Shown here piece by piece: positions 47,987-64,000 of a stretch of DNA of 64,000 nt. Source of the stretch: an uncultured Spirochaetales bacterium (GTDB lineage Bacteria > Spirochaetota > Spirochaetia > Sphaerochaetales > Sphaerochaetaceae); NCBI GenBank assembly GCA_949285145.1, contig CASDXQ010000007.1:35532-99531 (forward strand). The letters are read 5' to 3'. Numbering within the stretch: position 1 is the stretch's first letter; each line of letters opens with the position of its first letter. The position numbers and the translations under genes were made by a program. Below the pieces are notes generated by a model. That model saw nothing but the letters and a program-made list of their open reading frames with translations, ran no database searches and was not told the DNA's origin.

Positions 47987-49705
47987 TTACAGATGGGGGG
48001 GGGTAGATGTGCTTTCCGTCTCTTTCCTGTTCTGTATTTTATCATAATACATTCTGTTGTCTGCCTCCCTGAGAATGGATATCATGTCTGTTTTCGCATT
48101 GCCTGCGCTGCGGGACCAGCCGACAGAAAAATCATATTTCTTCACAGGAAGATATTCCCTGAAATATTTTCTCACCTCGCTGATAAGTTCTGAAGGAGAA
48201 AATCCTTCTTCCTCCTGAACCATGAGAAGGAATTCATCTCCGCCGTAGCGGAAAATATATTTATTGAGCTCTTTTGACGCATCTTTAAGGCTTTTCGCAA
48301 ACGCAATGAGAACCTTGTCACCTGTGAGATGTCCGAATGTGTCGTTGCATTCCTTCATGCCGTCTATATCGAAAATGAATATGCAGAAACGCTGTATTGC
48401 ACTCTGCTGCATATGTTCGATTCTGTTTGCAAGAGCCTTTCTGTTGAGCACTCCCGTAAGAGCATCTGTATACGCCATTCTCAGTGCTTTCTTCCGGTCT
48501 TTCCTGCCTGTGGATATCCTGATGCCATCTCTGAGCGTCTTGAAGAGAAACAGAAGAAGTGCCGTATACATCGGTACATACAGGAAAAGCTGCTCGTTTA
48601 CTGATGAGCCTGAATCAAGGACAGAGTTTTCCAGCATGATTGAAAGCAGATACAGGCAGAGACCGGAAATGAGGAACAGTCCTCCTTCAAAACGGGTTTT
48701 CACATATTTGCCTGCGAAATATGCAATCAGGGAAATGAAGTATGCTCCAAGCATTATGGTAATGAAAGGAAGACTGCTGTCTGTAGGTATGTTGAAGAAT
48801 GCATATCCTGTATATACAGCAGTGTAAATGGCAAGAAACGCATAGCTGAAAATTTCAAATCCTCTCATGCTGAATGCCGTACAATTGTAGTTTTTCCTTA
48901 TGTAGTTGCATATGACAAGCGGAAGAACAGCCATTGCCAGCATGGAAAGATCAATTGCAGCTGTCACATTCGGCATGATGAACTGCTTTGACCTGTTCTG
49001 CAGAACTATCCAGATTCCCGTGGTCAGAAGAAGATTTGCTGTTGACCAGAGGCTTTTTCTTGATTTCCTGTTGTCTATGGTGAGACACAGCAGGCTGATG
49101 ATGAACGCAGCCAGCAGAATTGAAAGCCCGGAACAGAGACTGGGGAAATTGCTTGCGGCTTCATTCACTATGAGAGATGTCTTGTTTCCGATATAGACAG
49201 GATAGATTTCAAACGGTCCGTTCTGTGTGTAACGCGTGCTGTAGATGATTTCGATCACGGAACCTGAATAGTTTTCATCCAGACTTGCAAAGTTGTATCT
49301 GCCTCCGCTGAAAGATGCGCTTTCACCGACCGGATTGCGGTCAGCAAGCGAGAAAATCCTTTTCCCATCCTGATATACTTCAACAGCGCTTGAGTAGGAG
49401 CGGAAACACAGTGTCGGGTCATTGTAGTTTCCACTGATGTTTCCTAGTTCTGTTTTCAGCACATATTCATCAGAAAACCGTCCTGTTTCCTCTCCAGTAA
49501 AATGGCCTGTGACGTTTTGTGCGATCAGTTTCCCGTTAAGATAGACATCAAAACTTCCAAGCATCTCATAGCTTTCCATGAAAATACGGCTTGAAGGCTG
49601 CTGGAAGCGCAATGATCCTGCAATCATTATGATGAAGAAAAGTGCCGATATCATAATAACCGATGCGGCAGCTGAACAGAGGAATATCCTTTTACTTTTC
49701 TTCAT
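47987..49705 (-). CDS. Membrane diguanylate cyclase (GGDEF) 1
   Basis: 572 aa. TM1 near the N-terminus, an extracytoplasmic region of about 160 residues with beta strands (like the 7TMR-DISM input), seven or so membrane segments, then a GGDEF domain from about 410. DALTGVLNRKAL, IFDIDGMKECNDTFGHLTGD and the active site RYGGDEFLLM (about 488) are intact, so c-di-GMP synthesis is expected. No RxxD inhibitory site is evident. The last codons run through a C9 tract (47995-48003). The start is 14 nt inside the second cyclase gene, so both are co-translated. Confidence 0.87.
   Translation of the reverse strand: MKKSKRIFLCSAAASVIMISALFFIIMIAGSLRFQQPSSRIFMESYEMLGSFDVYLNGKLIAQNVTGHFTGEETGRFSDEYVLKTELGNISGNYNDPTLCFRSYSSAVEVYQDGKRIFSLADRNPVGESASFSGGRYNFASLDENYSGSVIEIIYSTRYTQNGPFEIYPVYIGNKTSLIVNEAASNFPSLCSGLSILLAAFIISLLCLTIDNRKSRKSLWSTANLLLTTGIWIVLQNRSKQFIMPNVTAAIDLSMLAMAVLPLVICNYIRKNYNCTAFSMRGFEIFSYAFLAIYTAVYTGYAFFNIPTDSSLPFITIMLGAYFISLIAYFAGKYVKTRFEGGLFLISGLCLYLLSIMLENSVLDSGSSVNEQLFLYVPMYTALLLFLFKTLRDGIRISTGRKDRKKALRMAYTDALTGVLNRKALANRIEHMQQSAIQRFCIFIFDIDGMKECNDTFGHLTGDKVLIAFAKSLKDASKELNKYIFRYGGDEFLLMVQEEEGFSPSELISEVRKYFREYLPVKKYDFSVGWSRSAGNAKTDMISILREADNRMYYDKIQNRKETESTSTPPHL
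47995..48003. repeat. G9/C9 homopolymer tract at the 3' end of cyclase 1
   Basis: Nine G on the + strand, read as C9 in the coding strand, five codons before the stop (tail Thr-Pro-Pro-His-Leu). Loss or gain of one base would replace the tail with ICKT or with an 11-residue extension. Confidence 0.85.
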
Positions 49706-51431
49706 TCTCACTCTCCACCAGATCTTCATCTGTCAGCGTTCTGTATTTCTGCTTGTGCGCTGCCTTGTCTTCATACATCATGGAATCAGCTTTTCTGAGA
49801 GCTTGCGTGAAGTCTGCCTGCTGTCCGCCGTCAAAGATGCTGTAACCGGCTGCAATGGATGTTGAATACGGCGCGTTTCTGCTGTATGCCTTTTTCAGTT
49901 CCTGTGTATAGGCATCAATATTTTCCCTGACCAGTGATGCGGGGAGCAGTGCAACGAATTCATCACCTCCCATGCGGTATATGCTGGAACCTTCCGGAAG
50001 ATATTCATTGATGAATGAACCGAAGTATGAGATTATGCTGTCGCCTTCGCTGTGTCCGAAGCAGTCGTTGATTATCTTCACATCGTTTATGTCAAAAACG
50101 AATATCAGCAGATGTTCTTTTATCATGCCTGCCTTTTTCCTGAATGCTTCGAAATTACGTCTGTTATAACAGCCGGACAGAGAATCCATGTACAGCATTT
50201 CATCCAGCTCGATCTGTCCCATGATTCCCTGCATTTTTGTGTAGTATGAGGAGATTGAGAAAACAATGTAGCATCCTATTGCAGTCAGTCTGACCATGTT
50301 GGCGGCATTGTCAATGGCATTTACGGAATACATTTCCGAAGTCCTGACCAGATCCATGATGAATGCGGCGGTCATGAGAAATGAATAACCCGCGGCATAG
50401 CTTGCGGCAATTGATTCATCCCTCCGTTTCATTTCATAAACACACAGTACTGTGTAGATCATATTTACAGTTATGCATGCATGTTTTATTTTTGCAAAGA
50501 TGTCAAATGCAGCAAGGCTGTCGGAAAGGCTGATGACAGCAGAAAGGGTGCACAGTGATGCAGGCAGGAAAGCCAGCACCCAGTAGACGGTTCCTGAGAG
50601 AAAGCGGATTCTGAGAATCTTGTTGAAGGTTATCATGAAACACAGAGGATAGATCATGTAGCTGAAGACGAGCAGCAGCTGCCATAATTTCTCATTCGGC
50701 AAAATGAAAGTCCGCATCTGGCTGCTTGAAACCGTGATGAGCAGCGACTGCAGCAGCATAAGCATCAGGCCAAGTGAGAAATCCCTTACGTTTTTTAATT
50801 TTATGGATGAAGCAAAGACTCCGCATGTCATGAGCAAAAGCGTGATGTACACAAGTATCTGAATGGCGAGTATCGTGACAGACCTGCGCAGTGATGATAC
50901 CAGATCGAAAAATGAACCGACTGTAAGCCTGTCTATCGTGAATGTATTCGCAAAAGCCAGACCAGAGGGAATGAATTCTATCGATATTGTCCTCACGCTT
51001 TCATTCTCAGGAAACTGACCGATATAAATTGCATGCGTATTGAGATGAAGATCATACAGAAGATTCGATGTTCCGGCAGTGCTCGAGAAGACCGGCTTTT
51101 CGTTTACATAGACATTTACAATGCCGGCATCACTTGAGACCATGAATAAGTCTCCTCTGGTTATGGAACCGGCAGGAACGATGCCTTTCAGAGTGAGAGT
51201 GCTGCCGTTTTCCACTGTCACCGATTTCGGAAGCTGTGCGTTCACTTCAGCCAGTTCCCCATCGACATACAGATCCATATCCATCGGTACCCTGGTTGTT
51301 CCGTCCCTGTAAATTGAGGAATCTGAGATAATTGAATGGAAGAAAACGGCAATGAAAGTGATTATGACCGCCGCACAGACTATCACGGTGCAAATTATTT
51401 TCATAATCCTGCTGCTTTTTTCCTTTTCCAT
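49692..51431 (-). CDS. Membrane diguanylate cyclase (GGDEF) 2
   Basis: 579 aa with the same plan as its neighbour: N-terminal TM, extracytoplasmic input of about 170 residues, a block of membrane segments, then GGDEF. MDSLSGCYNRRNFEAF, VFDINDVKIINDCFGHSEGD and RMGGDEFVALLP (about 488) look active. The two probably arose by duplication but have diverged widely. The start at 51431 is chosen because TTGAAA (51465-51470) and TATGCT (51442-51447, minus strand) with 17-nt spacing place the -10 10 nt before it; longer starts at 51446 or 51455 are possible. Confidence 0.87.
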   Translation of the reverse strand: MEKEKSSRIMKIICTVIVCAAVIITFIAVFFHSIISDSSIYRDGTTRVPMDMDLYVDGELAEVNAQLPKSVTVENGSTLTLKGIVPAGSITRGDLFMVSSDAGIVNVYVNEKPVFSSTAGTSNLLYDLHLNTHAIYIGQFPENESVRTISIEFIPSGLAFANTFTIDRLTVGSFFDLVSSLRRSVTILAIQILVYITLLLMTCGVFASSIKLKNVRDFSLGLMLMLLQSLLITVSSSQMRTFILPNEKLWQLLLVFSYMIYPLCFMITFNKILRIRFLSGTVYWVLAFLPASLCTLSAVISLSDSLAAFDIFAKIKHACITVNMIYTVLCVYEMKRRDESIAASYAAGYSFLMTAAFIMDLVRTSEMYSVNAIDNAANMVRLTAIGCYIVFSISSYYTKMQGIMGQIELDEMLYMDSLSGCYNRRNFEAFRKKAGMIKEHLLIFVFDINDVKIINDCFGHSEGDSIISYFGSFINEYLPEGSSIYRMGGDEFVALLPASLVRENIDAYTQELKKAYSRNAPYSTSIAAGYSIFDGGQQADFTQALRKADSMMYEDKAAHKQKYRTLTDEDLVESENEEK

Positions 51432-51477
51432 CTTGTAATCAAGCATATTCCCCATGAATTTCATTTTCAAGCGAATC

Positions 51478-51506
51478 TTGCCAGTACAGCATGAATTTCC
51501 TATTAT
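51478..51506 (+). promoter_or_regulatory. Leaderless apbE promoter
   Basis: TTGCCA (51478-51483), 17-nt spacer, TATTAT (51501-51506), ending 7 nt before the ATG at 51514. No ribosome binding site. It faces away from the cyclase promoter, whose -35 (51465-51470) lies 8 bp from this -35. Confidence 0.7.
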
Positions 51507-51513
51507 TTTCATG

Positions 51514-52494
51514 ATGAGAAAATACATGTTCCTGCTGCTGTGCGGCACCGTCATCCTGCTTGCTTCATGTTCTGTCACTCCATATTCCGACAGCGAGTTC
51601 ATGATGGATACTCAGTGTGTCATCACCGTGTACAAAAAAAGTGATCTGGAGAAACTTGATGCCGTTTTTGAGGCGTTGAGGGATTTTGAGAAAAAGACAG
51701 ACCGCTATGAAGAGGGCAGTGAGGTTTCCCTGATAAACAGATATGCGGGGATATCTCCCGTGAGAGTGTCAGAGGATGTCTTCTCTCTCATTGCGAAGGC
51801 AAAGGAGATGTGTTCTTTCACCTGCGGAGCCTTCAATCCGCTGCTCGGACGGATTTCGGATATGTGGAATTTCAATTCATCAGATCATCACATTCCATCT
51901 TCTGCGGAGCTTGCCTGTATTGTCCTGGCAGCTTCCGATATCTCCAGTCTTGTGCTTGATGAGGAAAAACTTACCGTTTATCTTGCATCTGACTCTCTTT
52001 CCCTTGATCTGGGCGGCATTGCAAAAGGCTATGCAAGCACACTTGCCGCTTCAATGCTGGAGAATATGGGAATAGAAAGGGCGATAATCAATCTCGGCGG
52101 TAACGTATATGCTGTCGGATCCAGATCTCCATCAGAAGGATGGCGGATAGGGCTGCAGGATCCTCAGGGCGGTGGAGGCAGTTATTTCACAGTTGTCAAT
52201 GCCTGTGATGAAGCGGTTGTCACTTCAGGAGCATATCAGCGTTATTTCATTTCTGACGGTGTTGCATATCATCATATTCTTGACCCTTCCACCGGCTATC
52301 CTGCTGACAGTGATCTGGAAAGCGTTTCAGTGATCAGCAGTGACGGAACTCTTGCTGATGCTCTTTCAACTGCGCTTTTCGTGATGGGCAGCGTCAAAGC
52401 CGAATCATTCTGCAGCCTTCATGGCATAAAGGCTGTTCTTCTCAGTGAAAGCGGAGAAATCTCATACATTGGTTTTGACAGCGCTGAAAGCTAG
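51514..52494 (+). CDS. apbE: FAD:protein FMN transferase (ApbE) lipoprotein
   Basis: Extracytoplasmic flavin transferase that attaches FMN to threonine of partner redox proteins such as RnfG/NqrC. Lipobox LLASC at about residue 17-21. DTQCVITVY, LDLGGIAKGYA, INLGGNVYAVG and HHILDPSTGYPA are the ApbE motifs, and the final D-A-L-S-T-A-L-F segment holds the metal site. 326 aa. No Rnf or Nqr subunit is encoded in the window. The 3' end overlaps the convergent methyltransferase by 33 nt. An ATG at 51511 is an alternative start. Confidence 0.9.
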   Translation: MRKYMFLLLCGTVILLASCSVTPYSDSEFMMDTQCVITVYKKSDLEKLDAVFEALRDFEKKTDRYEEGSEVSLINRYAGISPVRVSEDVFSLIAKAKEMCSFTCGAFNPLLGRISDMWNFNSSDHHIPSSAELACIVLAASDISSLVLDEEKLTVYLASDSLSLDLGGIAKGYASTLAASMLENMGIERAIINLGGNVYAVGSRSPSEGWRIGLQDPQGGGGSYFTVVNACDEAVVTSGAYQRYFISDGVAYHHILDPSTGYPADSDLESVSVISSDGTLADALSTALFVMGSVKAESFCSLHGIKAVLLSESGEISYIGFDSAES

Positions 52495-53238: not shown

Positions 53239-53303
53239 GAAGGACATTATAGTACAAAATTGATTGACCAGTGATAATTGTTAGTGTTAGTTTAGCTTTA
53301 GCA

Positions 53304-54557
53304 ATGAGAGAAAAAACACAGCTTTCAAAAATCATTGCGGCAGCATCCGCCGCGGCAGTATTCCTTTTCATATTCATCATTCTGTGTGTCTGGACTGCGA
53401 GGATATATGAGGAGAGAAGGAGAGAAGATCTGCAGAACGAGATTGACAAAGTCACCAGAGAAGGCGGACAGTCCGCACTTCTGTCGCTGGGCGGATATGA
53501 GATTGACAATATATTCTATTCTGATGAAGGCCTGATTCTTTTTGAAGAAGGGGAGAAGGACTGGTTGTATTCCGCTGATGAGATGCAGAATATTTCCGTA
53601 TACAGGCAGTGTGCTCCATCTGTTGTCGAGATATATTCAGGAAGCCTGCTTTCCTCCGCATCCGGTTGCGGGGTCATAATATCTTCTGATGGCTATATCG
53701 TTACAAACACGCATGTCGCCGGCGCAGGAGGAACTCTTACTGTCAAGTTTTTTGATGGAAGTGTTGCGGATGCTCACCTTGCGGGTACAGATCCGCTCAC
53801 AGATATAGCCGTCATAAAAGTTGATGGCAGAGAGAATCTCATGCCTCTGGCTTTCAAGTCTGCTGATGAGCTTGTTGTAGGACAGAAGGTTATCGCCATA
53901 GGATCTCCTTATGGCTATTCATGGTCGCAAAGTGTGGGAACAATCAGTGCGCTTGAGCGTACTGTGACATCTTCAGGCGGAATTTCCCTTTCCATGCTCA
54001 TACAGACCGATGCCCAGATAAATCCCGGAAACAGCGGAGGGCCATTGCTTGACGGAAAAGGAAACATGATCGGGCTGATCACTGCAATCTATTCAACAAG
54101 CGGAAGCGCGCAGGGGATAAGCTTCGCTATTCCCGTCGACACAGTCATCGAGGTTGCCAGTGAGATAATAAGACTTGGACATGTGGACAGAGGCACTCTT
54201 GATATTCTGTGCGTAGAGCTTAACCCGATGATTGTGGATTATGCCTCTCTTCCGGTAAGCGAGGGGATTCTCATCTCCCAGGTCATTCCTGCAGGAGAGG
54301 CGGACAAAGCCGGACTGAAAGGCGGAAGCAGGGCGGTTCAGTATGGCAGCAGCGTAATCTATCTCGGCGGTGATATCATCACCGCACTTGATGATACTCC
54401 CGTGAGGGGATACAGTGATTATTATGCTTTCATGGCTGCCAGCGATTCCGGTGACAAAGTTGACGTGACTGTCATCCGGAACGGAGAGAAAGTAGTGATA
54501 AAGAATGTTCCTCTGGTTGGGCAGACTGTCGAGAATATGAGGTGGGTCATAAGATGA
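53304..54557 (+). CDS. HtrA/DegP-type membrane-anchored serine protease
   Basis: 417 aa envelope quality-control protease: an N-terminal TM (about 9-33), a coiled linker, a trypsin-like domain and one PDZ domain. The triad is in TNTHVAGAG (His), DPLTDIAVIKV (Asp) and NPGNSGGPLL (Ser). The PDZ (about 325-405) has LISQVIPAGEADKAGLKGGS and GGDIITALDDTPVRGY. The start at 53304 is the first ATG before the TM. It overlaps uvrB by 4 nt, an uncommon partner. Confidence 0.92.
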   Translation: MREKTQLSKIIAAASAAAVFLFIFIILCVWTARIYEERRREDLQNEIDKVTREGGQSALLSLGGYEIDNIFYSDEGLILFEEGEKDWLYSADEMQNISVYRQCAPSVVEIYSGSLLSSASGCGVIISSDGYIVTNTHVAGAGGTLTVKFFDGSVADAHLAGTDPLTDIAVIKVDGRENLMPLAFKSADELVVGQKVIAIGSPYGYSWSQSVGTISALERTVTSSGGISLSMLIQTDAQINPGNSGGPLLDGKGNMIGLITAIYSTSGSAQGISFAIPVDTVIEVASEIIRLGHVDRGTLDILCVELNPMIVDYASLPVSEGILISQVIPAGEADKAGLKGGSRAVQYGSSVIYLGGDIITALDDTPVRGYSDYYAFMAASDSGDKVDVTVIRNGEKVVIKNVPLVGQTVENMRWVIR

Positions 54558-56623
54558 GCGAGAACAGGCCGGATCCTTCCTGGGCCGGAAATGAAGTGGT
54601 CAATGTTCATCAGAATGCGGTTCTCAGAAACCGCAGCTTTCATGTAGTCTCTCCGTTTGACGTATCAGGAGATCAGGGACAGGCCATAGACAGGCTGGCA
54701 AAAGGGATCGAGAACGGAGACCGGGCACAGACATTGAAAGGTGTTACAGGTTCGGGAAAGACTTTCACGATGGCAAAGATAATTGAACGCATCAACCGCC
54801 CGACTCTTGTACTTTCCCACAACAAAACCCTGGCGGCACAGCTGTACAGGGAATTCAAGTCTTTCTTCCCTGATAATGCTGTCGAGTATTTCGTGTCGAC
54901 TTATGATTATTACCAGCCTGAAGCCTATGTGCCGGGCAAGGATCTGTACATTGAGAAGGAAGCCGACATAAATGATGAAATAGACAGGCTTCGTCTTTCT
55001 GCGTCATTTTCCCTTATGGAGCGGCGTGATGTCATAGTCATATCCACAGTAAGCTGTATCTACGGTCTTGGAAACCCTGTTTCGATCAAGGACATGATAC
55101 ATACATTCTCTGTCGGAGAGATCTTTGATCATAAAACAGAGCTTGAACAGCTTGTGCGCATGCTTTATGAACGTAACGATGTGGTGCTCAGCCGCGGCAC
55201 CTTCCGCGTCCGCGGGGATATTATCGAAATATATCCGGCCTATCTTGAGAGTGCTGTCAGAATAACACTTGACTGGGACGAGATCGTTTCGATTGAGGTC
55301 TTTGATCCTCTTACCCTTGAGAAGCTTGACAGACTCGAGAGCTTCACTCTTTATCCTGCCAAGCAGTTTGTCATGCCTAAGGAAGCTCTGGACAGTGCAA
55401 TAGGCAGGATAGAAAGCGAGCTTGAGGATCAGCTTCAGTATTTTGACAGTCAAGGCAAACTGCTTGAGAAGGAACGTCTCAAAAGCCGTGTCGAATATGA
55501 TATCGAGATGCTCAGGGAAGTCGGACACTGTGCCGGCATAGAGAACTATTCAAGGCCTCTTTCAGGAAGGGCTCCCGGAGAGAGACCTGCGGTTCTTCTT
55601 GATTACTTTCCTGATGATTTCATAGTCTTCATTGACGAATCACATGTCACGCTGCCGCAGATAGGTGCGATGTATGAGGGAGACAGATCAAGGAAAGTCA
55701 ACCTTGTGAACTATGGCTTCCGTCTTCCTTCCGCGCTGGACAACAGACCTCTCAAATACGAGGAATTCGACAGAAAAGTCGGGCAGCGGATCTATGTGAG
55801 CGCGACTCCCGGCAGGACTGAACTTAAAGAAAGCACCAGAATAGTCGAACAGATCATAAGGCCTACCGGCCTGCTTGATCCTGAAATCGAAGTGCGTCCG
55901 ACTGAAGGCCAGATGGAGGATCTTTACGGAGAGATCGTCAGAACAGTCAAGAAAGGCGAAAGGGTTCTCGTAACCACGCTTACCAAGAAGATGGCAGAGG
56001 ATCTGTCCGGATATCTTTCATCTCTCGGTCTCAAGGTTCGCTATCTCCACAGTGAAGTCGAGACTATTGAGCGTGTCGAGATCCTTACTGATCTCAGAAA
56101 AGGCGTTTTTGATGTTCTTGTCGGCATCAATCTGCTGCGTGAGGGACTTGATCTTCCTGAAGTCTCGCTTGTCGCCATTCTTGATGCGGATAAAATAGGA
56201 TTTCTGCGTTCTGCGACTTCACTGATCCAGACTATAGGACGTGCTGCGAGAAATGCGAACGGACGTGTGCTGATGTATGCAGATCAGATGAGTGATGCCA
56301 TGAAGGAAGCCATCAATGAGACCGAGCACAGGCGCGCTGTCCAGATGGCCTACAACAAGGAACACGGCATTACGCCGAAGACTATCAGGAAGGCTGTTGA
56401 GGATATTCTTGAGCGTCAGATGAAGGATGCAGAGGAAATCCAGCAGGAAGAGCTCAAGATCCAGCGTTCGGCTTTCAATCTGCTTCTCGAAAAGGACAGA
56501 AAGAAGTACCTGAGGTCTCTTGAGAAGGAGATGAGGGAATGCGCCGAACGTCTTGAATTCGAAAAGGCCGCCGCAATAAGGGATGAAATCGAAAGGGTGA
56601 AGAAGGGTGCTATCGGAAACTGA
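54554..56623 (+). CDS. uvrB: Excinuclease ABC subunit B
   Basis: Damage-verifying DEAD-like helicase of nucleotide excision repair. Walker A LKGVTGSGKTFTMA, the beta-hairpin VSTYDYYQPEAYVP, FIDESHVTLPQ (DEAD-box position), INLLREGLDLPEVSLVAILD, QTIGRAARN and the C-terminal UvrC-binding motif (LEKEMRECAERLEFEKAAA) are all intact. 689 aa, normal. Its ATG overlaps the protease stop (ATGA). With SMUG1 and dinB this is the third repair gene of the window. Confidence 0.96.
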   Translation: MSENRPDPSWAGNEVVNVHQNAVLRNRSFHVVSPFDVSGDQGQAIDRLAKGIENGDRAQTLKGVTGSGKTFTMAKIIERINRPTLVLSHNKTLAAQLYREFKSFFPDNAVEYFVSTYDYYQPEAYVPGKDLYIEKEADINDEIDRLRLSASFSLMERRDVIVISTVSCIYGLGNPVSIKDMIHTFSVGEIFDHKTELEQLVRMLYERNDVVLSRGTFRVRGDIIEIYPAYLESAVRITLDWDEIVSIEVFDPLTLEKLDRLESFTLYPAKQFVMPKEALDSAIGRIESELEDQLQYFDSQGKLLEKERLKSRVEYDIEMLREVGHCAGIENYSRPLSGRAPGERPAVLLDYFPDDFIVFIDESHVTLPQIGAMYEGDRSRKVNLVNYGFRLPSALDNRPLKYEEFDRKVGQRIYVSATPGRTELKESTRIVEQIIRPTGLLDPEIEVRPTEGQMEDLYGEIVRTVKKGERVLVTTLTKKMAEDLSGYLSSLGLKVRYLHSEVETIERVEILTDLRKGVFDVLVGINLLREGLDLPEVSLVAILDADKIGFLRSATSLIQTIGRAARNANGRVLMYADQMSDAMKEAINETEHRRAVQMAYNKEHGITPKTIRKAVEDILERQMKDAEEIQQEELKIQRSAFNLLLEKDRKKYLRSLEKEMRECAERLEFEKAAAIRDEIERVKKGAIGN

Positions 56624-57598
56624 ACAGGATCACGTCCATGTAGAATTTGTTCATGACAGGATTCTGGTCTTTTAAAAGAAGACGGTCGTCCGTGAGCCTG
56701 TCATAAAGATAAGATGCTGAGATCTTTTTCTCAGACGGCATTCCGGCTCTTTCTTCCTCCGCATCTATGAATCTGTATCCAAGTGCTTCCAGCAGCGATG
56801 CGGTGAAACGTCCATGCACTCTTCCCCTAGAGCTGTCTTCATAGCTCTCCTGATCCGCTCTGGCACCGGAGAGTATGTATGTGCTGCCGTTTCCGTAACT
56901 TCCTCTGCTGAAGAGAGCTGAGAATGCTCCTTTTATGTCTCCTTTGCTTGTTATGTCAGGATCATCCTTCACCATGCTTCCTGAAAAACATGAGTCCAGG
57001 ATTATTATTTTCTCTCCTTTCATCATTGATAAAGCACTTTCCAGTTCTGGCAGCGATATGATTTTCTGAAGGTTCCTGCTGTCGTCATGCCAGTATCCTA
57101 TAGCCGGAAGAGTATCAAAATAATCCAGGGCGAGGGCGCCGTTAAGGTATTCCTTTCCTTTGTCGCTGCATTCAATGCCATGGCCTGCGTAGTAGAAAAT
57201 GAATATATCGGAAGGCCGGATCCTTTCTGTGAGTTTATCAAGTTCTTCAAGGATTACTGTCTTGAGTTCATCCCTTCCGATTTTGCAGCTGGTCTGCACC
57301 GCATCTGTTTCTGTCGCATCCTTTGAATAAGCGGAAAGGCTGCAGCTACCGTTTTCCCCGGTGATTGCGACAGAGTGGAAAGAAGTGTTCTCCTTTGCAG
57401 CAAGGTATGCCATCTGGTTTATCATGGCCTTCTGGTCATTGACTGTTCCATTCAGAATGCTGGCACCGGTTCCCTTGTAGTCAAGACCTGCCGAGAGCAT
57501 GAAAATCCGTTTTCCTGCGGCTTTTCAGCTATGAGCTCGCAGCCGGAGAGAGTGATGCACAGTATGATAGCCAGTATTATGAAGGATATTTTTCTCAT
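56610..57598 (-). CDS. Caspase-like (C14) lipoprotein protease, interrupted by a one-base frameshift
   Basis: The main frame (56610-57500) encodes a caspase-fold domain: FIFYYAGHGIECS (catalytic His) and IIILDSCFSGSMV (catalytic Cys), then SGARADQESYEDSSRGRVHG, like metacaspase/paracaspase proteins of bacteria. Upstream, an ATG at 57598 starts MRKISFIILAIILCITLSGC, a lipoprotein signal with lipobox LSGC, which runs into the caspase frame only if one base is added near 57502-57513. That repair gives EKRIFMLSAGLDYKG, a normal caspase start. The 57598 ATG overlaps the previous stop (ATGA), strong evidence that it is the native start. Real mutation, phase variation and sequencing error are all possible. 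Confidence 0.75.
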
Positions 57599-58131
57599 TT
57601 CCTGTCCTCCGGCGGCAGAATGAGGCATGCCCCGATTCCCGGCTGGATTTCAAAACGCTGCCTGTAATAGACGAAACCTGTTCTGAAGTTCATTGAAAAA
57701 CAGGATGTGAGCTGCCATGCAAGGGTGAGGGAAGAATCCAGGAATGCGTACATTATATTCTGACGGTTCACGAATGCGAGTCCTATTCCGGCATCAGCGC
57801 CTATGGCAAGGTGTTTGAAAGCTTTTTCATAGCCTATGAAAACAGACAGCCGGTCACTGCCAAGAAGCGTTGTATTCATGTATTCAAGCGAGTCGGATGT
57901 TATTGATAGCCTCAGACCTGATGACAGTCTGTGACTGCTGAAGCTTACGGCAAGCGGGCTTGCCTCTATGTTCAATGCGAAAGCTGTCCTGCCTGGGAGT
58001 TTATCGTTGTCATCTGCCGTATTAATGCTGAAAACTGCTGACGCATATGCTTTGACATCAGGAGTCCATGATGCGGCACTGAGTGAAGCTGTGATCAGCA
58101 TCAGGGTCAAAAGTAAAAACAGTCGTTTCAT
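57595..58131 (-). CDS. Exported beta-barrel-like protein upstream of the caspase-like gene
   Basis: 178 aa with a signal peptide (MKRLFLLLTLMLITASLSAA) and alternating amphipathic strands afterwards (SPLAVSFSSHRLSSGLRLSI; CFSMNFRTGFVYYRQRFEI), suggesting a small outer-membrane barrel of about eight strands. No family was recognised. The start at 58131 has AGAGGTG just upstream. It is translationally coupled to the caspase-like lipoprotein gene, so the two products probably act at the same envelope site. Confidence 0.62.
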   Translation of the reverse strand: MKRLFLLLTLMLITASLSAASWTPDVKAYASAVFSINTADDNDKLPGRTAFALNIEASPLAVSFSSHRLSSGLRLSITSDSLEYMNTTLLGSDRLSVFIGYEKAFKHLAIGADAGIGLAFVNRQNIMYAFLDSSLTLAWQLTSCFSMNFRTGFVYYRQRFEIQPGIGACLILPPEDRK

Positions 58132-58256: not shown

Positions 58257-59264
58257 TCATCTGATATTCGCACCGTCTTTGAAAAAAAGCAGCCGGTTTT
58301 TGCTTATGTAAATGTTTACATGCTTTTTCTGTGGAAAAACGGGTGACTCGGCGAGTATCCTGTGCCCTTTGTAGCTCAGACCCAGGAGATAGCAGCGGCC
58401 CAGATATTCGCTGCTGATGACCTCACATTCATCAAGTATTATGTGTGAATCACTGCCGGCAAAGAACGGTTCTTCCTTTACCAGCACATCTTCCGGCCTG
58501 AAAAACACTGTGTCTGCCGGAATGCTCATATTGAAAAGGCCGGCATTCAAAGCGGTTCCTTCTCCCGTGAAGTACGCACAGAGAAGCGTTGCAGGGTTTC
58601 TGTATATGTTTTCCGGTGTGTCCGTCATTTCAAGTCTGCCGCCTTTTATTATCGCAATCCTGTCACTTATCGCAAATGCTTCCTCCCTGTCATGGGTGAC
58701 ATAGATTGTTGTAAGAGATGGGTTTGCATCGTGTATTCTTCTTATCTCATCTCTCAGATGGCGTCTCAGATTCGCATCCAGAGCCGAAAGAGGCTCGTCA
58801 AGCAGCAGTATTGAAGGATTTGAAGAAAGCGCACGGGCAAGTGCGACACGCTGGGCTTCTCCTCCTGAGAGAGTCATGACCTTGCGTTTGCTGTATCCGG
58901 AAAGATTCACGAGTGAGAGCAGCTGGCCGGCAGCTGAATGGCGTTCCCGGGCTTTCACCTTTCTTATCTTCATGGCCCAGGCGATATTCTTCTCAACATT
59001 CATGGAGGGAAAGAGTGCATAATCCTGGAATACCATGCTTATGCCCCTTTTCTGAACAGGAGTGGCGGTGATGTCCCTGCCGTCAAGCAGAATCTTGCCC
59101 TCGGAGGGGCTGTCAAGTCCTGCTATTATATTCAGCAGCGTTGATTTTCCTGATCCGCTTGGCCCTATTATCGTGAGAAATTCACCTTCATTCACGCTCA
59201 GATTGAGATCAAGAGAGAATTCAGGATAATCCTTCTTTATGTTCTGCAGTTCAAGTTTGCTCAT
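58257..59264 (-). CDS. thiQ: Thiamine ABC transporter, ATP-binding protein
   Basis: 335 aa. Walker A IIGPSGSGKST, Q-loop MVFQDYALFP, signature LSGGEAQRVALARAL, Walker B ILLLDEPLSALD and H-loop VTHDREEAF; a C-terminal TOBE-like beta domain (about 235-335) follows. By itself it resembles FbpC/PotA-type ATPases. The thiamine assignment comes from the TPP riboswitch before this operon. It overlaps the permease gene by 14 nt. Confidence 0.88.
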   Translation of the reverse strand: MSKLELQNIKKDYPEFSLDLNLSVNEGEFLTIIGPSGSGKSTLLNIIAGLDSPSEGKILLDGRDITATPVQKRGISMVFQDYALFPSMNVEKNIAWAMKIRKVKARERHSAAGQLLSLVNLSGYSKRKVMTLSGGEAQRVALARALSSNPSILLLDEPLSALDANLRRHLRDEIRRIHDANPSLTTIYVTHDREEAFAISDRIAIIKGGRLEMTDTPENIYRNPATLLCAYFTGEGTALNAGLFNMSIPADTVFFRPEDVLVKEEPFFAGSDSHIILDECEVISSEYLGRCYLLGLSYKGHRILAESPVFPQKKHVNIYISKNRLLFFKDGANIR

Positions 59265-60912
59265 TGTGCTTTCTCCTTCCCAGTTCTTCCGAGATGCTGA
59301 AGATGATGAATGTCGTGAGTATGAGAATCGTGCCTATTGCACATGCTCCCTGATAATTATATGAGTTGATCAGTCTGTAAAGCAGGATCGGAAGTGTTAT
59401 CACTCGGCCTTCCGCAAGTGTGAGGGTTGCATTCACTTCTCCGGCTGAAAGTGCGAAGGAGAAGATGAAGGCTTTGGCAAGACTGCTTTTCAGCATCGGA
59501 ATTTCTATGCCGAAACATGTTTTCGCCTCGCTTGTGCCCAGTGTGTATGCGGCAAGCAGAATGCGTCTGTTCACGCTTCTTACTGCGGGCGAAAGCGTGC
59601 GCATGGCAAAAGGCAGTGCGATTACCAGATGTGCAAGTATTACCAGGATATATGAGACTATGATGCTGCCGGAGTGTATATGTGCCTTTATTATGTAATA
59701 GCCGAGTCCTAGAGTCACTGAGCTTATTGCAAGTGGAAACATGCCGGTTATCTCAAGGATCCTGCTGTTCTTTTTTGAAGTGTAGAGGGAAAGAAAGAGT
59801 GCCAGAACAGTTGCGGCAGCTGCAACTGCAAGGCCGATGAATATACTGTTCAGCAGGGCTGTATAGGCATCGCCCATGGCCCCTATTGTGGATATGGTAC
59901 CGAATATTTCCTGATAGCTTCTCAGACTGAAACCTTCTCCATACCTCTTTGATGTTGAGATGAAGGATCTTGCGAGGATCGATACTATCGGGCCCAGAAT
60001 GAATATGAGCATAAGAGTGTTGTATATAAGCAGGGTCCAACCGACTTTCCAGCCTTTCGCCGGTACAGCCCGGTCTTCACGGCTTTTGTCCCTGTTCTCA
60101 GTTGTGCGTGAGATGAATGTATATATGATGAGTATTGTAAGATTCACAATGAATGTGAAAATGGAAAGTGCAGATGCGCGTGCAGAGTCAAGAACGATGT
60201 TGTTCGTCCTGTATATTTCCACTTCCAGTGTTGTATATTCAGGTCCGCCTCCAAGTACCAGGATTATTGAGAAACTTGTGAAGCAGAAGAGGAAGATCAG
60301 CAGGAAGGCCGACAGGATTGAGGGTAGAAGCCGTGTCAGTGTTACGGAGAAGAATATCCTCATATTTCCTGCTCCGAGCGTTCTGGCTGCATTTTCCGTA
60401 TTCCTTGACATGTTTGACCAGCTGTCCGTTATGAGGGAGAGGGCTACAGGTATGTTGAGAAATGCATGTGCAAGGATTATTGCCTTGAAACTGTAGAGAA
60501 TCTTTATGCTTTCACTGCTTCCTGTCAGTTTCCTGTAAAGCTCGTTCACGAATCCTGAGTTTCCGTAGAAAATGACGAAACCGAGCACGACCAGAATTGA
60601 AGGAAGAACGAAACACAGGCTTGAAAGGGATAGCATGAGATTCTTTCCCGGAAAGCGGTAGTTTGCATAAAGATATGCACCGGGAAGTGCGATGAGCACA
60701 CTGACAAGGCCGGAAATGAATGCCTGCAGCAGAGTGAATGCAAGCAGGCGGTAAGTGTAGGGAGTCGTGAAGACCTCCCTCACGAGATCAAGAGTGAAGC
60801 CCTCTTCATTGAAGAAGGCTTTGGAAAGATTGAATGAAAGTGGAAGAATGAAGAGCACCAGCAGGATTGCCAGCGGAAGAAGTGCCAGTGAAAAATAAAA
60901 TCTGCTCTTCAT
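59251..60912 (-). CDS. thiP: Thiamine ABC transporter, permease
   Basis: 553 aa with two fused permease halves of about six membrane segments each, the layout of ThiP/FbpB. Each half has an EAA-type loop: NAARTLGAGNMRIFFSVTL in the first and EAKTCFGIEIPMLKSSL in the second. The gene begins 19 nt after thiB and overlaps thiQ. Iron-type FbpB is the structural alternative, excluded mainly by the riboswitch. Confidence 0.88.
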   Translation of the reverse strand: MKSRFYFSLALLPLAILLVLFILPLSFNLSKAFFNEEGFTLDLVREVFTTPYTYRLLAFTLLQAFISGLVSVLIALPGAYLYANYRFPGKNLMLSLSSLCFVLPSILVVLGFVIFYGNSGFVNELYRKLTGSSESIKILYSFKAIILAHAFLNIPVALSLITDSWSNMSRNTENAARTLGAGNMRIFFSVTLTRLLPSILSAFLLIFLFCFTSFSIILVLGGGPEYTTLEVEIYRTNNIVLDSARASALSIFTFIVNLTILIIYTFISRTTENRDKSREDRAVPAKGWKVGWTLLIYNTLMLIFILGPIVSILARSFISTSKRYGEGFSLRSYQEIFGTISTIGAMGDAYTALLNSIFIGLAVAAAATVLALFLSLYTSKKNSRILEITGMFPLAISSVTLGLGYYIIKAHIHSGSIIVSYILVILAHLVIALPFAMRTLSPAVRSVNRRILLAAYTLGTSEAKTCFGIEIPMLKSSLAKAFIFSFALSAGEVNATLTLAEGRVITLPILLYRLINSYNYQGACAIGTILILTTFIIFSISEELGRRKHNEQT

Positions 60913-60931
60913 TTCTTCTTTGCCTCCGTTT

Positions 60932-61963
60932 TCAGTTGATCATTGCTTCTGTCCATTCTGCGGTCCATCTGTCGATATTCGCAGCCACATAGTCGGGATC
61001 CATGCTGAACACGCTCTCCGGCATCGGTGCCCATTCATATGCATCCGGCAGTTCTGTCTGTGAATTCACAGGATACATTGAATTTGCAATTGCGGTTTCT
61101 GCCTGGCCTTCGGTGAGGATGAAATCCACGAATGCTTCTGCTTCTTCCTTGTTGTCGCTTGATTCAAGTATTCCGATTGATTCAATTGTCATATGATGTC
61201 CTTCAGGGAATATGAGTGCCTGATAGCGTGTCGAGTCTTCCCAGAGCACATGATAAACAGGGCTTGTTGTATATGAGATCACAATCGGGGCTTCTCCTTC
61301 AGTGAAGAGACCGTAGGCGGAAGACCATCCGTCAGCGATCGTGAGGGCATTTCCCTTTACGGCTTTCCACCAGTCAAGGTATCCCTCTTCGCCGTATACG
61401 TCGATTGTCCACATGAGAAGTCCGAGTCCGACTGAAGATGTTCTCGGATCAATGAGAATGATCTTGTCCTTGTAGACAGGATCAGTCAGATCGTCAAGAC
61501 TTGCCGGTGCCGGTACGTCAGACTCACTGTCCCATACGAAAGCGAATACACCGTAATCGAAAGGAATGAGACGGTGCTGAGTGTCAAATTCAAGGGAATC
61601 ATCAACAAATTCAAGGGCAGGGGAATCATATGATGTGAAAAGCCCTGATTCATATGCAGTGCTTGCCTGATCATCTGAAATGCCCATTATGAGATCAGCC
61701 GGACAGCTGTCGCCTTCTATTATGGCTCTTGAAAGCATTTCAACAGCATCTCCGCCGCTGACCACGTTCACCTTGATTCCGGTCTCTTCCTCAAAGAGAG
61801 GGATGAGAGTGGGACCGGAACCCCATTCGGATGAGAATGTGTCATAGCAGTAGAGTGTGATTGACTTCTCTTCTGCAGAAGCTGATTCGCTGCTTGCCTG
61901 AGCGAAAAGAGATACACTGCAGAGCAAGACCAGCAAGATGGTTGTAATAAAGTGTCTTTTCAT
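60932..61963 (-). CDS. thiB: Thiamine ABC transporter, substrate-binding protein
   Basis: 343 aa periplasmic binding protein with signal peptide (RHFITTILLVLLCSVSLFAQ). LYCYDTFSSEWGSGPTLIPL at the mature N-terminus, PFDYGVFAFVWD and the Trp/Tyr-rich YGEEGYLDWWKAVKG and SYTTSPVYHVLWED are characteristic of TbpA/ThiB. First gene after the TPP riboswitch, with GGGAGG 8-9 nt before its ATG. Confidence 0.92.
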   Translation of the reverse strand: MKRHFITTILLVLLCSVSLFAQASSESASAEEKSITLYCYDTFSSEWGSGPTLIPLFEEETGIKVNVVSGGDAVEMLSRAIIEGDSCPADLIMGISDDQASTAYESGLFTSYDSPALEFVDDSLEFDTQHRLIPFDYGVFAFVWDSESDVPAPASLDDLTDPVYKDKIILIDPRTSSVGLGLLMWTIDVYGEEGYLDWWKAVKGNALTIADGWSSAYGLFTEGEAPIVISYTTSPVYHVLWEDSTRYQALIFPEGHHMTIESIGILESSDNKEEAEAFVDFILTEGQAETAIANSMYPVNSQTELPDAYEWAPMPESVFSMDPDYVAANIDRWTAEWTEAMIN

Positions 61964-62356: not shown

Positions 62357-64000
62357 CTACTTGAGGTAGATGTTCTTTACCGGATGGTAGTCCATTGTGT
62401 TGTTGTACCAGCCGCCCCACTTGTTGGTATCGATCATACCCTGTGATACGTATACATAAAGCGGGATGATGGCCTGATCCTGGTTGATGAGGATATCTTC
62501 AGCCTGCTTGAGAACTGCGAATCTTTCCTCTCCGGCCGGCATTGATGCAGCCTGTCTGATAAGTGCGTCATACTCTTCGTTTGAGTACTTACCGCCGTTC
62601 ATACCTGCACCTGTGATGAACATATCAAGGAATGTGTTGGGATCCTGATAGTCTCCGACCCATCCGGCACGTGCGATCTGGAAGTTGCCTGCGTTTCTGT
62701 TGGCAAGGTATGTTGCCCATTCCTGGTTCTCAAGCTCAACGTTGATGTTGAGGTTGTCCTTGAGCTGCTGCTGGATGTACTCAGCCTGCTGGCGGTGTGC
62801 GTCATCAGTATTGTAGAGTACTGTGATTGTCGGGAATCCTACACCGTTAGGATAGCCTGCTTCAGCAAGGAGCTGCTGCGCATATTCAGGATCGAAGAGG
62901 ACTCCGCCTCTGGCGCTTTCCTCAAGCGGTTCGTAACCTGCCATTTCAGGAACGATGCCCCAGCAAGGAATCTGACCAGCGCGTGTGACTGTGTCAACAA
63001 GACCCTGTCTGTCGATTGCGTAGCTGATAGCCTTTCTTACGAGAGCGTTGTCAAGTGGCGGCTCAGTTACATTGATTGTGTAATAGTATGTTGAGAGCTG
63101 AGGAGCAACCTGATAATCGGATCTCATGCTGATTGCATCAAGGTTGTTGAGATCGATACCTGTATCCCAGTCAACTTCTCCTGAGAGATACATGTTGTAA
63201 TTTGTGGCTGTATCATCACTTGCGAGGAACACAACTTCATCAAGAGCTACGTTCTCTGCATCCCAGTAGAGCTCATTCTTGACACAGACGATTCTGTCCT
63301 GAGGAGTATGTTCCTTGAGGACAAACGGGCCGTTGCCGACGAAATTCTCGGGCTTTGTCCAGTCTGTACCGTACTTCTCGATTGCATGCTGCGGAACGAT
63401 GCCGAATGAATAGTGGCACAGTGCTCCGATAACATACGGAAGAGGTCCGATAAGAGTCATTTCAAATGTATGATCGTCAATTGCCCTGATCTGAAGTGCG
63501 CTTGCATCTGCTTCGCCTGCATTGAATTCAGTAGCACCTGCGATGAACATTGCAGGGAACCATGCATACGGACTTCCTGTTGCAGGATCAAGCTCACGTG
63601 TCCATGAATAGACAACATCCTGTGCTGTTATTGGAACACCGTCTGACCATACTGCATCTTCTCTGAGATGGAAGGTGTAGGTGAGACCGTCTTCTGAAAT
63701 ATCCCAGCTTTCTGCAACGCCCGGAACGCCGTCAGCTGTCTGAGGATCTACTGCAACAAGACCTTCAAAAAGAGCTTCGAAAATTCTATGCTCAGGAACA
63801 CCCTGGATCTGGCTTGGATCAAGAGATTCCGGTTCTGCAGCATTCGCAATTACGAAAGATACGTAATCATCTTCCGGTGCTGCAGCTGTTGAAGTTGCTG
63901 CTGTTGTGGTTGTCGTGCTGCTTGCTGCCGGAGCGGAAGTAGCTTCACTGCTGCCGCCTGCAAAAGCACTGAAAGAAATAAGAGCAATTAATGCTAATGC
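62357..64000 (-). CDS. oppA: Oligopeptide ABC transporter substrate-binding protein (5' end outside window)
   Basis: 548 codons are visible with the start beyond the right edge. The visible N-terminal part is the end of a signal peptide (ALALIALISFSAFA) followed by a Ser/Thr/Ala-rich linker, with no lipobox Cys. The mature protein is SBP family 5: PESLDPSQIQGVPEHRIFEA, DGLTYTFHLREDAVWSDG and YAIDRQGLVDTV at the expected places, ending WYNNTMDYHPVKNIYLK. OppA or DppA-type peptide binding is likely. No permease follows downstream; a strong terminator closes the gene. Confidence 0.9.
   Translation of the reverse strand, partial: ALALIALISFSAFAGGSSEATSAPAASSTTTTTAATSTAAAPEDDYVSFVIANAAEPESLDPSQIQGVPEHRIFEALFEGLVAVDPQTADGVPGVAESWDISEDGLTYTFHLREDAVWSDGVPITAQDVVYSWTRELDPATGSPYAWFPAMFIAGATEFNAGEADASALQIRAIDDHTFEMTLIGPLPYVIGALCHYSFGIVPQHAIEKYGTDWTKPENFVGNGPFVLKEHTPQDRIVCVKNELYWDAENVALDEVVFLASDDTATNYNMYLSGEVDWDTGIDLNNLDAISMRSDYQVAPQLSTYYYTINVTEPPLDNALVRKAISYAIDRQGLVDTVTRAGQIPCWGIVPEMAGYEPLEESARGGVLFDPEYAQQLLAEAGYPNGVGFPTITVLYNTDDAHRQQAEYIQQQLKDNLNINVELENQEWATYLANRNAGNFQIARAGWVGDYQDPNTFLDMFITGAGMNGGKYSNEEYDALIRQAASMPAGEERFAVLKQAEDILINQDQAIIPLYVYVSQGMIDTNKWGGWYNNTMDYHPVKNIYLK

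Follow-up and report, generated by a model that had tools for sequence, protein, structure and literature searches.

A caspase-type protease gene paired with the gene of a predicted small outer-membrane barrel in Sphaerochaetaceae and related spirochaetes

To our knowledge, bacterial relatives of the caspases have been studied mostly for their part in cell death and defense, the function of most of them is unknown, and the cell envelope is a place where enzymes of this type are not usually sought. Proteases of the envelope surface with Arg/Lys specificity include the gingipains, which belong to clan CD and are exported by a type IX system, and the omptins, which are themselves barrels. In the present study, a stretch of 64,000 nucleotides (hereafter the window) was analyzed from an uncultured Spirochaetales bacterium of the family Sphaerochaetaceae (GenBank assembly GCA_949285145.1, contig CASDXQ010000007.1, positions 35,532 to 99,531 of the forward strand). 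In this window, a caspase-type protease gene lies directly behind the gene of a small exported protein that is predicted to be an eight-stranded outer-membrane barrel. We propose that the two genes form one unit, and that barrel and caspase act together as an envelope-anchored protease that cuts after Lys or Arg, a reading to which we assign a probability of about 0.55. At the level of sequence, this proposal builds on the adjacency of the two genes, the overlap of stop and start, the homology of both partners among relatives, the joint inheritance of duplicates, and a conserved catalytic dyad with two acidic residues.

Spirochaetes are among the groups with caspase homologues in passages of PMC3501461, which also describe the function of most homologues in its set as unknown and report OmpA domains in 14 metacaspase operons. 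N-terminal helices that are possibly signal peptides have been noted on caspase homologues, and a TAT-like (twin-arginine translocation) signal on cyanobacterial pseudo-orthocaspases, in sections of PMC3501461 and PMC6426788, and a Brachyspira C14 gene is listed among putative virulence factors in an excerpt of PMC8116685. No description of a caspase-barrel pair was found in searches of an open-access library. We class the window protease as an orthocaspase-type C14 enzyme and the pair as one built from known folds. With the orthocaspases and metacaspases (C14, C14B) it shares the caspase fold, the His-Cys dyad, and acidic residues at the specificity-pocket positions, whereas the lipoprotein signal and the exported partner gene found in its relatives set it apart. 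The partner, in turn, resembles small eight-stranded outer-membrane proteins of the OmpX/Ail and Opa types in its size, signal peptide, eight alternating segments, and weak matches in the PDB; in contrast to these, the window protein lies under the cut-off of every family model, and the partner gene is tied to a caspase. A likeness to the EACC1-associated caspases (NF047832) was also observed, as 44 of 45 members match that model at E <=0.001, but the window protein scores 46.2 bits, which is below the cut-off of 140.

The features of the window locus are as follows:

57595..58131, minus strand: small exported protein of 178 amino acids, a predicted eight-stranded outer-membrane barrel (open reading frame with a signal-like start)
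57606..57610, minus strand: Shine-Dalgarno-like GGAGG within the 3' end of the barrel gene, 7 nucleotides ahead of the lipoprotein ATG
57595..57598, minus strand: ATGA in which the barrel stop and the lipoprotein start overlap, read directly from the sequence
57452..57598, minus strand: lipoprotein signal segment with lipobox LSGC (Cys codon 57539-57541), in its own frame of 48 codons
57500..57539, minus strand: linker in which the frame shifts between lipobox and caspase; relatives hold intact copies
56610..57500, minus strand: caspase-type protease domain, 296 amino acids from ATG 57500, with His107, Cys171, Asp22, and Asp169

An earlier note on this DNA had described a C14 protease with dyad motifs and a lipoprotein signal, the start of which overlaps the stop of an exported gene. 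The small gene upstream (57595-58131, minus strand) is indeed an open reading frame (ORF) with a signal-peptide-like start, and the lipobox ATG at 57598 overlaps its TGA. The protease holds up in its parts, namely, the caspase ORF, the motifs YAGHG and DSCFSG, and the lipobox segment, but these parts do not make up one ORF in the contig.

Retention of both genes within the family is near-universal. A first survey detected the caspase in 36 of 61 genomes, including all 16 of the window's genus (16/16). With a profile built from 45 caspases, it was found in 130 of 139 family genomes, and a profile built from 62 partners likewise placed the small protein in 130 of 139. Both genes were missing together in 5 family genomes, versus 0.6 expected by chance (Fisher 3.6e-5), an association that is inflated by draft completeness and relatedness. 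Adjacency was examined in 137 stretches that were picked because they bear a caspase (136 fetched loci and the window) and that contain 173 caspase ORFs; a barrel-profile match was counted as a 5' partner when it lay anywhere from a 70-nucleotide overlap to a 250-nucleotide gap. Such a match stood directly 5' of 127 of the 173 caspase ORFs, and six further 5' partners, missed by start choice, were recovered via their places in the genomes (L107, L114, L119, L121, L122, and L196), which brings the caspases with a homologous and adjacent 5' partner to 133 of 173. The partner was directly 3' in 2 of 173, both in genomes of genus g16 (L111 and L193), where the order is reversed to caspase then barrel on the same strand. 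The remaining 38 caspases comprised 19 second caspases behind a first, 5 fragments, 4 at the edges of contigs or stretches, and 10 others. Many loci of genus g3 (L051, L151-L170) have the order barrel-caspase-caspase, with the caspase alone duplicated, and one barrel might serve two proteases there.

Viewed from the barrel side, 127 of the 150 listed family barrels lie directly 5' of a listed caspase, a count that refers to the matches listed, with weaker ones outside the list. Of 127 pairs, 105 offer a caspase start that overlaps the barrel stop by 4 nucleotides and 5 offer one that overlaps it by 1 nucleotide, and a Shine-Dalgarno-like word is present at 100 of these 110 overlapping pairs. 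The conserved GG-x-R tail of many barrels was considered as a functional peptide and rejected, because the window codons at this place are the Shine-Dalgarno-like site of the next gene and such a word accompanies the overlapping pairs generally.

At the level of the class, 394 genomes were sampled, the window's family among them, and 231 matched the caspase profile. An outside-family sample of 46 loci contained 38 compact caspases (<460 amino acids and not truncated at the 5' edge). When trained on the window's family (f1) alone, a partner profile matched the ORF directly 5' of 18 of these 38 caspases, which belong to 14 families, and gave 20 matches in total across the 46 loci. A broader partner profile adds families such as f10 and f16, although it had already seen some of these sequences, and the same arrangement is visible by eye in L187 (family f2). 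In two genomes of family f25, the partner lies about 3 kilobases (kb) upstream of the caspase, with a sensor-like gene between them. In L183 (1147-2952; family f25) and in L201, the gene between barrel and caspase has an NMT1/THI5-like N-terminus, as read from its translation, and resembles a membrane sensor. Outside the class and within the phylum, the listed barrel matches are weak (eight candidates scored per genome), the best being 1.1e-8 (G466) and the others 1e-5 or worse.

Joint inheritance was assessed at 11 loci that hold two pairs in tandem, using the distances among their 22 partners and among their 22 caspases and swapping the partners within a locus, which keeps the species history. 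Barrel and caspase distances gave an r of 0.874, versus a mean of 0.32 (standard deviation 0.17) for swapped partners, and 3 of 5000 swaps were as high. As far as the sequences tell, duplicated pairs are inherited jointly, with matched trees. This result bears on the possibility that the genes are merely co-transcribed and that each has its own task in the envelope, for example, if both are carried along behind a thiamine-type ATP-binding cassette (ABC) transporter. Among 21 family representatives, 13 (from 9 of 16 genera) do have the pair behind an ABC operon of the thiamine type, with uvrB and an htrA-like gene in convergent orientation, and a shared vertical order of this kind could hold genes together. 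However, the pair is intact with other flanks in 8 of the 21 representatives (L065 included; g9, g11, and g14 of these have some flanks in common), it recurs in 14 other families, and its duplicated copies have been inherited as a pair. We therefore regard mere co-transcription as unlikely.

The gene order common to 13 of 21 representatives speaks for vertical inheritance of the pair, and this largely vertical neighborhood, together with near-universal retention in the family, points to a housekeeping role in the envelope rather than defense. A defense system was rejected as the principal interpretation, since the genes are present in 130 of 139 family genomes with constant neighbors in 13 of 21 representatives, and are neither sporadic nor island-like. 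The caspase model of PADLOC matches 28 of 45 members at E <=0.001 (best 5.9e-11; window 6.7e-4); this model has no stated cut-off, and a shared fold would also match it.

The window caspase ORF matches PF00656 at 39.3 bits (cut-off 21.4 bits) and contains the motifs YAGHG and DSCFSG. In 45 aligned caspases, Asp22, His107, Asp169, and Cys171 are invariant columns; in the set of 173 caspases, 168 of 169, 169 of 170, 169 of 169, and 168 of 169 aligned members, respectively, retain them. Asp169 is located two residues ahead of the catalytic Cys, which matches the position of Asp211 in TbMCA2 if the Cys of that enzyme is residue 213. A weak alignment places Asp22 opposite residue 115 of a TbMCA2 chain, which would be Asp95 if a 20-residue offset from the catalytic His applies. 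In TbMCA2, Asp95 and Asp211 form the pocket for basic specificity, according to a portion of PMC6426788. Because the dyad and the two acidic pocket residues are nearly invariant, the caspase is predicted to cut after Lys or Arg. The predicted structure of the caspase (predicted local distance difference test, pLDDT, 75.8; predicted template modeling score, pTM, 0.83) has the plant metacaspases 4 and 9, the MALT1 paracaspase, and legumains as its nearest folds.

A first, narrower lipobox pattern was found in 137 of 173 caspases. A wider pattern, applied after the removal of fragments and of ORFs that run open at their 5' edge, detected the lipobox in 148 of the 165 full-length caspases. Of the remaining 17, most have a similar segment by eye; one of the 17 is L196, which has a long N-terminus, and another is the window itself. 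The distance from the lipobox Cys to the first core strand has a median of 21 residues (163 members); therefore, the caspase domain would sit near the membrane, presumably held there by a lipid anchor. The earlier note had suggested that the pair is an undescribed two-component system that should be sought in other genomes. The recurrence of the arrangement in the family, the homologous partner adjacent to most inspected caspases, and the lipobox signal in relatives all support such a unit. Neither of the two findings that the note had named as contrary to its proposal, an unrelated barrel-like protein or a missing signal peptide in relatives with the caspase, was borne out.

The evidence on the partner comes mainly from its profile. 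A signal-like N-terminus was observed in 124 of 127 partners. Hydrophobic and polar positions alternate in the partner profile with a period-2 moment of 1.03 versus 0.46 (standard deviation 0.06), and 0 of 1000 shuffles were as strong. By eye, the profile has eight alternating segments whose connections are alternately short and long, like those of eight-stranded outer-membrane proteins. Of 62 partner relatives, 5 match PF13505, and the window protein is not among them. A protein search with the partner returned 10 proteins only, too few for a good model, and two somewhat deeper partner alignments were set aside, as their distant rows looked misaligned. We infer that the partner is an eight-stranded barrel and that it is placed in the outer membrane. 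Arg48, Ser81, and Gly91 are among the more conserved columns and would lie at ends that face outwards if the termini are periplasmic, as the predicted topology has it; Pro150, Gly165, and Gly167, within the strands, are also conserved.

In the mechanism that we propose, translational coupling would allow both proteins to be made in step. The barrel would insert into the outer membrane and act as a docking partner, and probably as a regulator, for the protease, which would be kept close to the membrane by its tether of approximately 20 residues and would process envelope or surface proteins after Lys or Arg. A different division of labor would make the barrel the protease's own substrate, cut after the conserved basic residue of its first outward loop (Arg48 in the window) and thereby switched on or off. 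This column is predicted to lie where the second strand ends on the outside, and 101 of 134 barrels have Arg or Lys there; the acidic pocket pair that is kept in the protease family and the paired inheritance are both in line with such a role. On the other hand, Trp, Tyr, or another residue stands there in 33 of 134 barrels (28 of them without Arg or Lys within two positions), though the caspase pocket is nearly invariant. Furthermore, Ser81, Gly165, Gly167, and Pro150 are more conserved than Arg48, which may be structural. Arg48 as a cleavage site is weakened by the 33 barrels that lack a basic residue at this column, and we doubt that the barrel is the substrate.

The pairing of a protease with a predicted membrane barrel could also be that of a protease with a pore, in which the caspase, once activated, would open the barrel or remove a plug and thereby let material through the outer membrane, possibly in a death or lysis program. 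Eight-stranded barrels normally lack an open pore or lumen, and presence in 130 of 139 family genomes with largely vertical synteny is unlike a death or defense cassette. Bacterial caspase homologues have been linked to cell death in passages of PMC3501461. The eight predicted strands and the near-universal retention make a pore or a death system less likely, and we consider it very improbable.

Several observations weigh against the favored reading of a barrel-docked, envelope-anchored protease that cuts after Lys or Arg. Within the family, 4 genomes have a partner match and no caspase match, 4 others have the reverse, and none of the 19 second caspases comes with a separate barrel. Outside the family, 20 of the 38 compact caspases lack a match to the family-only partner profile, and in family f20 a metallo-beta-lactamase-like gene (read from its translation) occupies the partner's place in three loci. 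The f20 gene overlaps the caspase start and has no obvious signal (L069 5530-6096, L192 2499-3065, and L182 2524-3084), and the f20 genomes harbor barrel homologues elsewhere, two of them clear and one weak. For the specificity, the comparison with TbMCA2 uses catalytic residues that we take to be His158 and Cys213. As for the fold of the partner, its best PDB profile matches are mostly outer-membrane barrels and are weak (Opa60 at E 0.029, Ail at 0.17, and OmpX at E 0.22); one of the matches, at 0.14, is a cutinase. The earlier note had proposed structure prediction for both proteins; this succeeded for the caspase, whereas the AlphaFold2 model of the partner, made from four close sequences, is unusable (pLDDT 30.4). 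Because this model failed, the barrel fold rests on the profile pattern and the weak matches. Finally, lipobox and caspase are in separate frames in the window contig, and the window caspase has no in-frame signal.

In the window copy, the lipobox frame starts at ATG 57598 and ends with a stop after 48 codons, and the caspase frame has a stop codon upstream of ATG 57500. In the two closest relatives, L034 (genome G012, 92% identical) and L035 (genome G001, 87% identical), lipobox and caspase form one frame of 339 amino acids each, and a single frame is also found in the protein clusters P0001 (125 members) and P0002 (26 members). When approximately 12 kb was compared with each of the two relatives, the linker held the only uncompensated single-base length difference clearly within a gene; a second such difference is located at 51513, where two divergent ORFs overlap in their start regions. 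Since the relatives carry signal and protease in one frame, the window copy of the caspase gene is either broken or mis-assembled. Programmed frameshifting is not favored, as the relatives need none. For the window copy only, it is a serious possibility, though one we lean against, that the gene is a decaying pseudogene and the organism has no lipidated caspase: the two frames differ, and the window caspase is the sole PF00656 match in the genome of 2.06 megabases. However, the caspase domain and the barrel are still open and similar to those of the relatives, and a one-base assembly error would give the same picture, error and true mutation being indistinguishable here.

The window pair is flanked by a thiamine-type ABC transporter operon (58257-61963, minus strand), whose substrate-binding protein exceeds the cut-off of TIGR01254, and by convergent uvrB and DegP/HtrA-like genes (53271-56623, plus strand). 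The caspase is also located beside uvrB and an htrA-like gene in L069 (family f20), and near them in L067 (family f5). Other genes in the vicinity include an ApbE-like lipoprotein gene (51454-52494, plus strand) and a gene with a GGDEF-like C-terminus (49692-51602, minus strand), both read from their translations. An oligopeptide-binding-protein-like gene (62357-64000, minus strand) runs off the contig end at the window edge, and its true start is therefore not the one listed at 63550. A scan for terminators and promoters gave counts close to the shuffled mean.

In contrast to the gingipains and omptins, protease and barrel are here encoded by separate genes, and lipidation would anchor the protease. 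More tentatively, and with a confidence slightly short of even, the pair may constitute a previously undescribed, class-wide outer-membrane protease machine of spirochaetes, whose lipid-anchored Lys/Arg caspase and dedicated eight-stranded barrel would be joined in one complex at the surface. In such a machine, the caspase fold would serve a housekeeping purpose outside the cytoplasm, and the whole would be a split counterpart of an omptin or a gingipain. Through much of a bacterial class, the present analysis ties one caspase lineage to an exported partner that is predicted to be a barrel, and it places a partner next to a family of small, predicted outer-membrane proteins that otherwise has no name. 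The pair in cultured Sphaerochaeta thus offers a concrete, testable case for the roles that caspases may have in the bacterial envelope.

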